From Deltaproteobacteria bacterium RBG_13_61_14 (GTDB taxonomy: Bacteria > RBG-13-61-14): a stretch of 7,983 nt of DNA. The DNA lies in NCBI GenBank assembly GCA_001797815.1, contig MGQK01000123.1, positions 12,864 through 20,846 of the forward strand, in the 5' to 3' direction. Positions 4,482 to 7,983 of this stretch are shown one piece after another (the first letter of the stretch is position 1; each line of letters begins with the position of its first letter). The notes beneath the pieces are model-generated. The model was not told the DNA's origin and ran no database searches. It saw nothing but the letters and a program-made list of their open reading frames with translations. The position numbers were made by a program, and so were the translations under genes.

Positions 4482-4510
4482 TTGACTGTTGCTTGGCGCA
4501 GTGCTAATTT
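4482..4510 (+). promoter_or_regulatory. Promoter of the first LDI-like gene, extended -10
   Basis: TTGACT (4482-4487), 17 bp, TAATTT (4505-4510), preceded by TG one base before the hexamer (TGcTAATTT), which is an extended -10. It starts 2 bp after the glycosyltransferase stop codon and predicts a leader of about 22 nt with AAGGAG (4526-4531) as ribosome binding site. The same arrangement recurs upstream of the second LDI-like gene, which supports function. Confidence 0.65.
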
Positions 4511-4538: not shown

Positions 4539-6107
4539 ATGCGTAAAGTTTTGCTTTTATCCGCCCTGGTGATCCTTTCTTTTTCCGCGGGGATGGCCTC
4601 GCCTGACCCGGCGTGCCCGGTGGACCCGTCCACTTATCCCCAGATCGGCCAAGAAGAAATGGCGCAGTTGCGCTGGACGCTCAAGCTCGCGAGCCAGCCG
4701 CTGGATGATTTTTCCAACCTGGAAGGCGCTAACCAGTTCGGCATGCAGGCCTACCGCTACCAGATCGCCTTCATGACCTATGCCCTGGCGCTGGAGCAGT
4801 ATCACAAGCTCCCGGCCTTTCGCGAGCTTCTTCAGCCGGCCGTGGACCGCCTTATCCAGAAGATCATCCAGCGGCCGGTCTGGGAGTTCTGGGCCGAAGT
4901 GAGCCGGGGCGTGCCCACCCTGGAACCGAAAGGGAACCGGCCCTATCCCGAAGTCCACGACCCGGTGGGCGACATCAACATCATGTATTCCGGCCACCTG
5001 GGTCACATGATCGGGCTGTATGAGATGCTCTTTCGGGATTTCCACTGGGACCAGCCCGGCAGTATCGTGTTCGCCTGGTCCGAGGACGAAACATACGTGT
5101 ATGACAACCCCAAGCTGCAACAGGCGATGTGGAAGCAGATGGACGAGAACCCCTGGCATTCCATCGCCTGCGAGCCCAACGCCGTCTTTCCCGAATGCAA
5201 CCAGCACCCGGTGCTCTCCTTCATCCTCTACGATTGGACCCACGGCACCCACCTGGCCGACGTGCGCCAGAAATTCTTCGATTTTTTCCTGGAACGCAAG
5301 CTGATTGACCCCAACACCCACGTCACCGCCGGCTATTACCTGATCAAGCAGGACCGGGTCTTCACCTCCCAAAGTCCGCGCTCCGAAAACGTCTTTGACC
5401 TGCTCACCGTGCCGGCCGCGGCCGTGGGCGTTTTGGCCAAAACCTCAGCCTGGGCCGACGGCTGGACCGGCGCTTTCATGCATGCCTGGCAGCCGGAATT
5501 CATCGAGCGCCATTACCCTTATCAGCGGGAGAACGACCTCCAGGAGGTGGACGAGGAAATGGCCCGGCTCAAGCGCGACCTCGGCGGCCGGAACATCCAA
5601 TACGGCTATTTCGCGGCCTATGCCCAGGAAGTGGGCGATCATGAGACCGCGAAAAAACTCATCGCCTTTGCCGACCAGAAGAATAAGCCCCAATGGCGCG
5701 AGGGCATGCTCTATTACCCCTGGGATAAGTCTGCCGCCTCCAGCCACTTGACCGGACACCTGCTCTTCCTGGCCCGGGCCAATGTCAAGGACGGCCTGCT
5801 CAAACTCCACCAGCAGCCCTGGCCCGAGTCTCACTTCCAGGAGCCTTTTATCGAGAAGGTGGATTATCCCAAGATGCTGGTGACTCGCGCGATTTACGAC
5901 CGCGAGAAAAAGGCGCTCATCGTCAGCACCCGGACCGGACCAGGGTCGCAAGGCCAAGCCAGTTTCCAGGTGCGGAACCTTTCTCCGAATCAAACCTACA
6001 CGCTCTGGCTGGATGGAAAGCTGGTCAAGCAATTTCAAGGTCAAGACCCTTTAGTCGTGGAAATTCCTCTCGATGGCTCTTATGACCTGGTGATTGCGGG
6101 CTTATGA
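4539..6107 (+). CDS. Secreted linalool dehydratase/isomerase-like protein, copy 1
   Basis: A 522-residue exported protein: signal peptide at residues 1-20 (MRKVLLLSALVILSFSAGMA), then a helical barrel of the LDI family. From memory, the Castellaniella defragrans enzyme isomerises geraniol and linalool and dehydrates linalool to myrcene in the periplasm. Matching blocks are INIMYSGHLGHMIGLYE (146-162) and CEPNAVFPECN (211-221). They keep the catalytic His (H153) and the Cys pair nine residues apart (C211, C220); Y74 also fits. The Asp and Tyr that bind the substrate hydroxyl in LDI appear not to be conserved in my hand alignment, and there is a 16-residue insertion near 165-190. Residues about 438-522 form an extra beta-rich C-terminal domain absent from LDI (about 400 residues). 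ATG is chosen over the in-frame TTG at 4482 because of AAGGAG at 4526-4531 and the signal peptide. The stop overlaps the next start (ATGA). Substrate unknown. Confidence 0.8.
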   Translation: MRKVLLLSALVILSFSAGMASPDPACPVDPSTYPQIGQEEMAQLRWTLKLASQPLDDFSNLEGANQFGMQAYRYQIAFMTYALALEQYHKLPAFRELLQPAVDRLIQKIIQRPVWEFWAEVSRGVPTLEPKGNRPYPEVHDPVGDINIMYSGHLGHMIGLYEMLFRDFHWDQPGSIVFAWSEDETYVYDNPKLQQAMWKQMDENPWHSIACEPNAVFPECNQHPVLSFILYDWTHGTHLADVRQKFFDFFLERKLIDPNTHVTAGYYLIKQDRVFTSQSPRSENVFDLLTVPAAAVGVLAKTSAWADGWTGAFMHAWQPEFIERHYPYQRENDLQEVDEEMARLKRDLGGRNIQYGYFAAYAQEVGDHETAKKLIAFADQKNKPQWREGMLYYPWDKSAASSHLTGHLLFLARANVKDGLLKLHQQPWPESHFQEPFIEKVDYPKMLVTRAIYDREKKALIVSTRTGPGSQGQASFQVRNLSPNQTYTLWLDGKLVKQFQGQDPLVVEIPLDGSYDLVIAGL

Positions 6108-6298
6108 TCCTCCCGCCCGAAAAAATTTCGACTGATGTCCGCCGCGACGGGATAGACTTCCTGATCATCGGCTCCGGCGCGGCCGGGTCGGTGCTGGCTT
6201 ATCATCTGGCCCAGGCCGGGAAGAAAGTGGTCGTCCTGGAAAAAGGCCACTACTGGCCGCCCGAGGCCATGCGCCAGCGCGAGCTGTTCATGACCGCA
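6104..6298 (+). pseudogene. 5' fragment of a GMC-type FAD oxidoreductase gene
   Basis: The ATG overlaps the stop of the LDI-like gene by ATGA, as expected for translational coupling. Residues 18-49 form a Rossmann beta-alpha-beta unit with GSGAAG (23-28) and an acidic E46 at the end of the second strand. This matches the FAD-binding start of GMC (glucose-methanol-choline) oxidoreductases, including the following YWPPEAMRQREL. After about residue 62 the similarity ends and the frame continues into glycosyltransferase sequence, so the FAD fold, substrate domain and catalytic His (normally over 400 further residues) are gone. The boundary is only known to lie between about 6285 and 6305. An intact gene was probably the third member of the original unit. 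The fragment cannot be an active flavoenzyme. Confidence 0.75.
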
Positions 6299-6676
6299 GG
6301 GCCGTGGTGGGCCTGGGTCAGTCATCCGCGCTACGACCTAGTGGATGGGTCCCGGCGCCTGGGAGCGGTGCTGGAATCCGAGGAAAAGGCTCTAGGTCGG
6401 CCGGCGGTGCTGATCGGCGAATGGACCGGCTCCTTAAGCCTGGAAAACCAAATGATCTGCTACTACGTCAAGGCATCCGACAACCAACGCCCGGAACAAC
6501 TCCGTGCCTTCGGCATTACCCACCTGCTCGAAAACCAGGACAAAGACGATCCCGCGGTCAACCGCTTTAAACGGCTTTCCCCCCAGACCTATGCGGCGAG
6601 ATAACCCGTGGCCGACTTCCAGGTGCGCAACCGCCACCTCCGACTCTACCGCATCCCTCCCCTCTGGACCGAATGA
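6299..6676 (+). pseudogene. 3' relic of a second GT-C glycosyltransferase gene
   Basis: In the same frame as the GMC fragment, the sequence from HPRYDLVDGSRRLG onward aligns with residues about 398-511 of the glycosyltransferase at 2873-4480. Shared blocks are IGEW-G-L-LEN, GITHLLE and DPAVNRF-RL. About 60% of positions match over 84 by hand count, with an insertion of about five residues after AVLES. All transmembrane segments and the catalytic region are missing. TAA at 6602-6604 stands where the intact copy has a Val codon; beyond it the same frame continues to match (VADFQVRNR) until TGA at 6674-6676, so this is a nonsense change and not a frameshift. A 166-residue chimeric product from 6104 to 6604 could still be made. 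Confidence 0.8.
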
Positions 6677-6683
6677 AAGCGGT

Positions 6684-6712
6684 TTGACTCTGGCTCAGAA
6701 GAATGTTAGTTT
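6684..6712 (+). promoter_or_regulatory. Promoter of the second LDI-like gene, interrupted downstream
   Basis: TTGACT (6684-6689), 17 bp, TAGTTT (6707-6712) with TG one base before the -10 (TGtTAGTTT). It sits 7 bp after the glycosyltransferase relic, at the same place and with the same geometry as the promoter of copy 1. The inserted element begins two bases after the -10, so any transcript from here would carry almost the whole element in a leader of nearly 190 nt. Confidence 0.6.
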
Positions 6713-6713
6713 G
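6704..6713. repeat. Target-site duplication, left copy
   Basis: TGTTAGTTTG, a perfect 10-bp direct repeat of 6872-6881, directly abuts the left inverted repeat of the inserted element. In copy 1 of the unit the equivalent site occurs once (TGCTAATTTG, 4502-4511), which shows the pre-insertion state. Confidence 0.85.
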
Positions 6714-6871
6714 GGTGTGCGACATTTTTGGTGGATTTTTCCATTAACCCATTGATTTTGCGGGTGATGGTGTCTGTAATGAATACTTACAGATATTGGA
6801 TGAATTCCCCAGTCATTTTCAGAACTTTGGGAATTCCTCGGCCGCCTAGCCACCATTTATGTCGCACACCT
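6714..6871. mobile_element. MITE-like non-coding element, 158 bp
   Basis: The ends are GGTGTGCGACAT (6714-6725) and its perfect complement ATGTCGCACACC (6859-6870). The inverted match resumes after three mismatches with TGGTGG, giving 18 of 21 positions. A perfect 10-bp direct repeat flanks the element, with one extra T (6871) on the right. It encodes no transposase and is clearly richer in AT than its surroundings. Inside is a hairpin, TCTGTAA (6773-6779) and TTACAGA (6787-6793), and two GAATTCC sites (6802-6808 and 6831-6837). Mobilisation would need a transposase elsewhere. The family is not recognised; a target duplication of about 10 bp is compatible with several DDE groups such as IS4. 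The empty site at copy 1 supports insertion. Confidence 0.85.
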
Positions 6872-6881
6872 TGTTAGTTTG
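6872..6881 (+). promoter_or_regulatory. Target-site duplication, right copy, carrying an extended -10
   Basis: TGTTAGTTTG repeats the original extended -10 (TGtTAGTTT) 26 nt before the ATG of the second LDI-like gene, at the ancestral distance. No good -35 lies 16-18 bp upstream within the element end (bases near 6852-6858 read ACCATTT), so activity would depend on the TG extension alone. It may be a weak substitute promoter or inert. Confidence 0.45.
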
Positions 6882-6906
6882 AAGCTATTTCCAGGAGGTT
6901 ACAGAC

Positions 6907-7983
6907 ATGAGAACGGGGCGACTTCTTGCCATGGTTGCCATCCTGTTACTTTCCATCTCGGCCGCGGCAACGGACCCTGGCTGCCCGGTGGACCCGTCCG
7001 CTTACCCGGTCATCGGCCCGGAAGAGATGGCGCAACTCCGCTGGACCCTCAAGCTCGCCAGCCAGCCGCTGGATGATTTTTCCAACCTGGAAGGCGCTAA
7101 CCAGTTCGGCATGCAGGCCTACCGCTACCAGATCGCCTTCATGACCTATGCCCTGGCGCTGGAGCAATACCACAAGCTCCCGGCCTTTCGCGAGCTCCTG
7201 CAGCCGGCCATGGACCGTTTCATCGAAAAGATGGTCCAGAAGCCGGTGTGGGAGTTCTGGGCCGGGGTGAGCCAAGGCGTGCCCACCCTGGAACCCAAAC
7301 GGGACCGGCCCTATCCCGAAGTCCACGACCCGGTGGGCGACATCAACATCATGTATTCCGGCCACCTGGGTCACATGATCGGGCTGTATGAGATGTTCTA
7401 CCGCGATTTCCACTGGGACCAGCCCGGCAGCATCGTGTTTGCCTGGTCCGAGGACGAAAAATACGTGTATGACAACCCCAAGCTGCAACAGGCGATGTGG
7501 AAGCAGATGGACGAGAACCCCTGGCATTCCATCGCCTGCGAGCCCAACGCCGTCTTCCCCGAGTGCAACCAGCACCCGGTGCTATCCTTTATCCTCTACG
7601 ACTGGACCCACGGCACCCGCCTGGCCGAGGTGCGGCAGAAGTTCTTCGACTTTTTCCTGGAGCGCAAGCTGATTGACCCCCGCACCCACGCGACCGCGGG
7701 TTATTACCTGATCAAGCAGAACCAGGTCTTCAGCCTGCAAAGCCCTCGATCCGACAATGCCTATGACCTGCTCACCGTGCCGGCCGTTGCCCTGGGCCTT
7801 TTAGGTAAGGGGTCGTCCTCGGCCGACGGTTGGACCGGCGCCTTCATGCACGCCTGGCAGCCGGAATTCATCGAGCGCCATTACCCCTATCAGCGGGAAA
7901 ACAATCTCAAAGAGGCGGACGAGGAGGGGGCCCGGCTCAAGCGCGACCTTGCCGGCCGGCCGCTCAAATACGGTTTTTTTGCC
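6907..7983 (+). CDS. Secreted linalool dehydratase/isomerase-like protein, copy 2, 3' end outside window
   Basis: Open from ATG 6907 to the window end (359 codons, no stop), so it is incomplete. AGGAGG (6893-6898) lies 8 nt upstream. The signal peptide is MRTGRLLAMVAILLLSISAA, followed by a mature start like that of copy 1 (CPVDPSAYP against CPVDPSTYP). It aligns with copy 1 without a single gap, about 301 of 359 residues identical by hand count. H153, C211, C220 and Y74 occupy the same positions, so the putative catalytic set is intact. Differences concentrate in the signal peptide and around residues 272-300 and 331-359; the latter two may tune substrate or stability. The even protein-level conservation suggests that both copies remain under selection. 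Expression is probably altered by the element in its promoter region. Same uncertainty on substrate as copy 1. Confidence 0.8.
   Translation, partial: MRTGRLLAMVAILLLSISAAATDPGCPVDPSAYPVIGPEEMAQLRWTLKLASQPLDDFSNLEGANQFGMQAYRYQIAFMTYALALEQYHKLPAFRELLQPAMDRFIEKMVQKPVWEFWAGVSQGVPTLEPKRDRPYPEVHDPVGDINIMYSGHLGHMIGLYEMFYRDFHWDQPGSIVFAWSEDEKYVYDNPKLQQAMWKQMDENPWHSIACEPNAVFPECNQHPVLSFILYDWTHGTRLAEVRQKFFDFFLERKLIDPRTHATAGYYLIKQNQVFSLQSPRSDNAYDLLTVPAVALGLLGKGSSSADGWTGAFMHAWQPEFIERHYPYQRENNLKEADEEGARLKRDLAGRPLKYGFFA

Follow-up and report, generated by a model that had tools for sequence, protein, structure and literature searches.

Two groups of Mutator-like insertion sequences (ISs), TnGBS/ISLre2 (p-MULT 3) and ISKra4 (p-MULT 4), keep a fixed spacing between their insertion sites and the sigma-A promoters downstream of them (Guerillot et al. 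2014, PMC3942029). The distance is 15-17 bases for TnGBS; the p-MULT 3 distribution peaks at 16 bp, and p-MULT 4 has a similar but weaker peak (PMC3942029). Both the ISKra4 group and TnGBS make 8-9-bp duplications, and their inverted repeats carry a conserved terminal cytosine (PMC3942029).

Small non-autonomous elements (MITEs) without a transposase gene follow the same pattern in an uncultured deltaproteobacterium, an order-level relative and Ca. Abyssubacteria. They share several properties with the ISKra4-group ISs (p-MULT 4; PMC3942029): GGG...CCC inverted repeats of about 20 bp; a 9-bp target duplication; and insertion about 16 bp upstream of a sigma-A-type -35, from either end. They differ in lacking the transposase gene and in their size (107-234 bp for the paired elements delimited in three genomes), and the copy treated here sits in a promoter core, not upstream of it. 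TnGBS and ISLre2 likewise have Mutator-like transposases and insert 15-17 bp upstream of -35 boxes; however, the matching IS transposase is of the ISKra4 and not the ISLre2 family, and either MITE end can face the promoter.

MITEAba12 and other bacterial MITEs, likened here by description, are also non-autonomous, with inverted repeats and no coding capacity. The Correia elements (NEMIS/CREE) of Neisseria are short palindromic MITEs near genes, one of them just 3' of the mtrCDE promoter (PMC10969869). Their host belongs to a different phylum. As described, the ends and transposase family of Correia elements differ as well.

The element in question lies in a 7,983-nucleotide stretch (the window; G000:C123:12864-20846) of a 4.74-Mb assembly of 132 contigs, 95% complete and broken at repeats. 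The comparison set comprised three genomes of the same phylum, with G001 and G002 as order-level relatives; further genomes included Ca. Abyssubacteria SURF_17 (G060) and a more distant genome with a complete IS (G033, locus L124). It is quite probable that this element is a MITE of an ISKra4-family (p-MULT 4) IS inserted into the -10 of a duplicated enzyme gene, transcription through a folded leader being the most likely outcome.

An insertion between promoter and gene

The window contains two linalool dehydratase/isomerase-like (LDI) genes, and the 159-bp sequence in the promoter of the second is confirmed as a non-autonomous transposon (MITE) insertion. The features are:

4482..4510, + strand: promoter of the first LDI gene, TTGACT (4482-4487)-N17-TAATTT (4505-4510), with the empty site TGCTAATTT at 4502-4510
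4539..6107, + strand: first LDI-like gene (PF18566, E 8.2e-83)
6684..6689, + strand: TTGACT, the -35 hexamer in the second LDI gene promoter (TTGACT-N17-TAGTTT), conserved with 4482-4510
6704..6712, + strand: left copy of the target duplication, TGTTAGTTT, holding the original -10; 9/9 match to 6872-6880
6707..6712, + strand: -10 hexamer TAGTTT (extended, preceded by TGT); predicted start at about 6719-6722, inside the element
6713..6871, no strand assigned: non-autonomous ISKra4-type element (MITE), 159 bp, without transposase; boundaries from copy comparison and family copies in the same genome
6713..6734, + strand: left terminal inverted repeat GGGTGTGCGACATTTTTGGTGG, of the same end type as the complete ISKra4-family IS in L124
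6850..6871, - strand: right terminal inverted repeat, reverse complement AGGTGTGCGACATAAATGGTGG; outermost base T, which is C in other clear copies
6872..6880, + strand: right copy of the target duplication, TGTTAGTTT, with a -10 and no -35 (slot 6852-6857 reads ACCATT)
6893..6898, + strand: ribosome-binding site AGGAGG, outside the element; recognized by sequence, with predicted accessibility similar with and without the element
6907..7983, + strand: second LDI-like gene (PF18566, E 1.4e-72), running off the window into a scaffold gap

The segments 6714-6734 and 6850-6870 form inverted ends of 21 nt with 86% complementarity, flanked by copies of the direct repeat TGTTAGTTTG at 6704-6713 and 6872-6881. 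No open reading frame of at least 60 aa is confined to the element. The original prediction of a MITE-like insertion with inverted ends is borne out by these features and by the recurrence of the ends throughout the genome; its boundaries, 6714-6871 (158 bp) between perfect 10-bp duplications, need a small correction. In almost all clear copies the base preceding GGTGTGCG is G and the base following CGCACACC is C; in the window copy the latter is T. G 6713 and the base at 6871 are therefore part of the element, whose outermost bases are G...C in the consensus and G...T here; it begins one base earlier than proposed and is flanked by a 9-bp duplication, the rule that other copies follow. The corrected inverted repeat is GGGTGTGCGACATnnnTGGTG. 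The tenth matching base of the direct repeat is the element's own G, coincident with a chromosomal G at 6881. The terminal cytosine is present at both ends in most copies and at the left end in the window copy, and its replacement by T at the right end may have left this copy immobile.

The upstream paralogue, already proposed as the empty site, has TTGACT-N17-TAATTT with no insertion, and the two LDI leaders align once the element and one target copy are removed (an equally good alignment arose in 2 of 5,000 shuffles). The empty-site junction at the second leader would read AAGAATGTTAGTTTGAAGCTA. Among 20,000 Markov resamples, 22 contained the pattern TTGACT-N17-TAGTTT and 9 the paralogue's TTGACT-N17-TAATTT. 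A simple promoter scan did not pass the second leader, since TAGTTT is a weak -10. Two further points hold as first described. The original promoter survives ahead of the element, with TTGACT-N17-TAGTTT intact on the left, and the extended -10 is duplicated, each of the identical 9-bp copies carrying a -10. The second extended -10 (6875-6880), noted earlier for its distance from the ATG, is present but falls short of a full promoter: 17 bp upstream, where its -35 should stand (6852-6857), one position of six matches TTGACA.

Downstream of the first LDI gene lies the 3' end of another copy of the glycosyltransferase-like gene that precedes it. The second LDI gene and its leader thus derive from a local duplication, which makes the paralogue a reasonable empty-site reference. 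At window 6104-6604, one reading frame joins an FAD-binding N-terminus to C-terminal sequence of this preceding glycosyltransferase-like gene, and it seems to mark the junction of the duplicated segment from which the second LDI gene arose. A run of 68 Ns follows window position 7983 directly, within the second LDI gene (L195 448-515), and probably marks where the assembly broke between two nearly identical paralogues. Elsewhere in the window, the intergenic stretch 1255-1340 before a glutamyl-tRNA synthetase-like gene holds several nested inverted copies of a GTGCACnGTGCAC-like sequence.

A dispersed family and its transposase

The 12-base end GGTGTGCGACAT has 11 exact matches in the 4.7-Mb genome; allowing up to one mismatch raises this to 35 sites, whereas the reversed control has 3. 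The longer end pattern GGTGTGCGACATNNNTGGTG, with up to three mismatches, occurs at 27 sites in this genome, 18 in G001 and 34 in G060 (controls 1, 1 and 3); some of these sites are chance matches. The proposed search for the element elsewhere finds its ends repeated in all three of these genomes. At least 10 related loci in the same genome share the element ends, with more in the order-level relative and in Ca. Abyssubacteria. Paired elements lie on C3, C126, C40, C85, C114 and in the window; single ends lie on C84, C32, C11, C80, C125 and C5. Paired elements in the relatives are on C344, C388 and C323 of G001 and on C43, C2 and C35 of G060. Duplications of 9 bp flank independent loci: C126, C85 and the window (each 9/9), and C40 and G060 C43 (each 8/9).

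The interiors fall into subfamilies within the genome: C85/C114/C84/C32; C3/C126; C40; and C11/C80, to which the window copy is related at 73-77% identity. The window interior is otherwise single-copy, its similarity to the two longer C11/C80 elements extending over 90-130 bp. These two relatives, at the end of C11 (L002) and the start of C80 (L027), are 97% identical to each other, and their interiors run off the contig ends. They were considered as the autonomous partner and set aside: the interiors stop at the contig ends, and the one relative found is a decayed piece of the C11/C80 interior on C27 (L082, about 1500-1600).

Several further observations concern the family. Loci of G060 (L061, L157, L158 and others) carry the same MITE family at the same 16-bp promoter distance, and some G060 copies contain GTAGGGGTCGTTCGCGAACGACCCC palindromes. 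The copies at G000:C84:1-157 (L003) and G000:C32:1-173 (L004) are interrupted by an IS110-like element (family judged by eye from its frame, MEKAEAVVAFVGIDAH..., with the source gene in L085), which in both cases occupies a REP-like palindrome of the MITE. This IS110-like element has a third copy on C40, inside another GTAGGGGCG-type repeat, which suggests that it targets such palindromes. The sequence beside the C32 and C84 ends was examined as a candidate for the cognate transposase and proved to be this IS110-like element, inserted into two MITEs. A scan of GTDB genome contigs with the end pattern (17 fixed bases) returned 29 matches, about the chance number; only 2 of the 29 had paired ends, both in Ca. 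Abyssubacteria SURF_17. One match on a viral contig was without a partner end.

A native leader structure such as a riboswitch or thermosensor would also fold strongly and occupy this position. This origin for the 159 bp can be all but dismissed: many unrelated loci carry such ends together with 9-bp duplications, in place of the native, unrepeated sequence that would have spoken against an insertion; the sequence is absent from the paralogue's leader and from the short leaders of the LDI homologues in G001 and G002; and an Rfam search of the element gave 0 matches.

A complete IS in G033 (L124) identifies the mobilizing family. This IS is 1,831 bp long; its 18-bp inverted ends, GGGTGTGCGACAAATTTG, match perfectly, as do the two 9-bp copies of the flanking duplication, AGATGGCTG. 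Its transposase scores 329.6 bits against NF033572 (ISKra4, Mutator-like; cut-off 205) and 80.6 bits against ISLre2, below the cut-off of 200. Both ends of the C126 MITE are identical to the L124 ends over 18 bases; those of the window element agree at 16 and 14 of 18. The family is ISKra4 because a single IS combines this transposase, the C126-identical ends and the 9-bp duplication. The order relative G002 has a nearly complete ISKra4 transposase with an end, GGGTCTGCGTCATAAAAGTGG, 7 nt after the frame and identical to the MITE end at 16 of 21 positions; NF033572 also detects a transposase fragment in G001. ISKra4 relatives in a plasmid collection reach only 24-31% identity among the matches listed.

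The original prediction had suggested looking for a transposase with such ends. One exists, in G033; a profile search of the window's own assembly with NF033572 found no ISKra4 transposase, which is weak evidence of absence in a 95% complete assembly whose contigs break at repeats. An unseen donor nevertheless counts against an ISKra4 origin, as does a window interior related only to C11/C80, whose own interiors are cut off at contig ends. Some other transposase family with shared ends, such as IS256 or ISLre2, could in principle have moved the element: both are related Mutator-like families with 8-9-bp duplications, and ISLre2 also targets promoters (PMC3942029). This seems very unlikely given the ISKra4 score of the IS with identical 18-bp ends, and given that PF01609 transposases in the three genomes of the phylum have no matching element ends nearby.

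A promoter at sixteen base pairs

Promoter scores for the pattern TTGACA-N16-18-TATAAT were computed at successive distances beyond 50 element ends in the window's own genome, G001 and G060. At 14 of the 50 ends, a sigma-70-like promoter (at least 8/12) has its -35 starting exactly 16 bp outside, where 0.48 is expected. None of 3,000 first-order Markov resamples gave more than 4 at this distance, and among the real ends the runner-up distance also has 4. Examples are C125, TTGACA-N18-TGATAT; C3, TTGACA-N17-TATAGA; and C85, TTGACG-N17-TAGTAT. The mean promoter score peaks at 16 bp in each genome alone, clearly in the window's own genome and in G060, and weakly in G001 (289 of 2,000 shuffles reach the same height at some distance). 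This shared preference is, beside the ends and the 9-bp duplication, a further ground for placing the elements in the ISKra4 family.

The window copy is an exception. It has no promoter 16 bp outside either end, a point against assigning it to ISKra4, and it departs from the family's preference by sitting on a -10. The original prediction recognized the MITE-like insertion but missed both the transposase family and its promoter-directed targeting. MITEs and ISKra4 targeting are already known kinds; a limited literature search found no papers describing ISKra4-type MITEs, and a promoter-directed family of them in uncultured phyla appears to be unreported.

Consequences for the second LDI gene

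The most probable sequence of events begins with the local duplication that created the second LDI gene. Later, an ISKra4-type transposase acting in trans would have inserted the element into TGTTAGTTT, making the 9-bp target duplication. Transcription most likely still begins at about 6719-6722, some 7-10 bases past the -10, a few bases into the element and inside its left inverted repeat. The mRNA leader would then open with a stable hairpin of about 150 nt, followed by the unchanged ribosome site. As single-stranded RNA the element has a predicted fold of -63 kcal/mol (z -7.1 against shuffles).

Occlusion of the ribosome site by this hairpin was considered and rejected, the predicted accessibility being no lower than in the ancestral leader. 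In the predicted transcript from 6719 the element forms a closed hairpin, and AGGAGG has a mean unpaired probability of 0.28, compared with 0.19 for the ancestral leader. From 6722 the value is 0.22, and the start codon is more paired (0.01 versus 0.08), so a small effect on translation is possible in this model. The hairpin probably changes how long the mRNA lasts and does not block translation; protection of the 5' end and cleavage by RNase III are two possible routes. The closest experimental precedent comes from Neisseria, where RNase III cleaves mtrCDE transcripts at the inverted repeats of the Correia element that follows the promoter (PMC10969869).

The main rival to transcription through a folded leader starts from the same element. 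Here the structured 159 bp would block open-complex formation or early elongation and silence the gene, an outcome that is possible but doubtful. The element begins directly after the -10, its fold is strong, and the second -10 has no -35 with which to compensate. Against this, the original -35 and -10 are intact and correctly spaced, a scan found no terminator-like site in the element leader, and the ribosome site is predicted to be as accessible as before. Moreover, between the two LDI copies dN is 0.095 and dS 0.41 (dN/dS about 0.2; NG86, 359 codons), so purifying selection has acted on the protein during most of the period since the duplication, although this ratio does not date the insertion and the selection may pre-date it. 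The original prediction had offered silencing and a folded leader side by side; the intact left -35/-10 and the unreduced accessibility of the ribosome site favor transcription through the element, with silencing the less likely outcome as judged from sequence.

It had also raised a reversible switch, in which precise excision would give some members of the population their ancestral promoter back. A perfect 9-bp duplication and a precise empty-site paralogue would allow exact excision in principle. Such a switch is nonetheless unsupported and very improbable: the right terminal C is replaced by T, the assembly yields no ISKra4 transposase, and evidence from p-MULT elements points to circular intermediates, not programmed excision (PMC3942029).

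A broader reading, offered as a long shot, is that this promoter-seeking ISKra4-type family, shared across phyla, acts as a leader-remodeling device, its landings on a -10 giving hairpin mRNAs and unequal expression of duplicates. If so, many copies would lie 16 bp upstream of promoters, and copies on a -10 would keep the promoter and add an RNase-cleavable or protective hairpin.

Promoter-directed insertion by ISKra4 was known in 2014 from complete ISs. The same 16-bp rule now shows in small non-autonomous elements whose uncultured hosts span at least two phyla, and targeting by the transposase therefore travels with the ends. ISKra4-type ends may thereby serve as pointers to real promoters in genomes that lack expression data. 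The window copy, in turn, illustrates the outcome when the rule is missed: an element that takes over the transcript leader of one duplicate enzyme gene.
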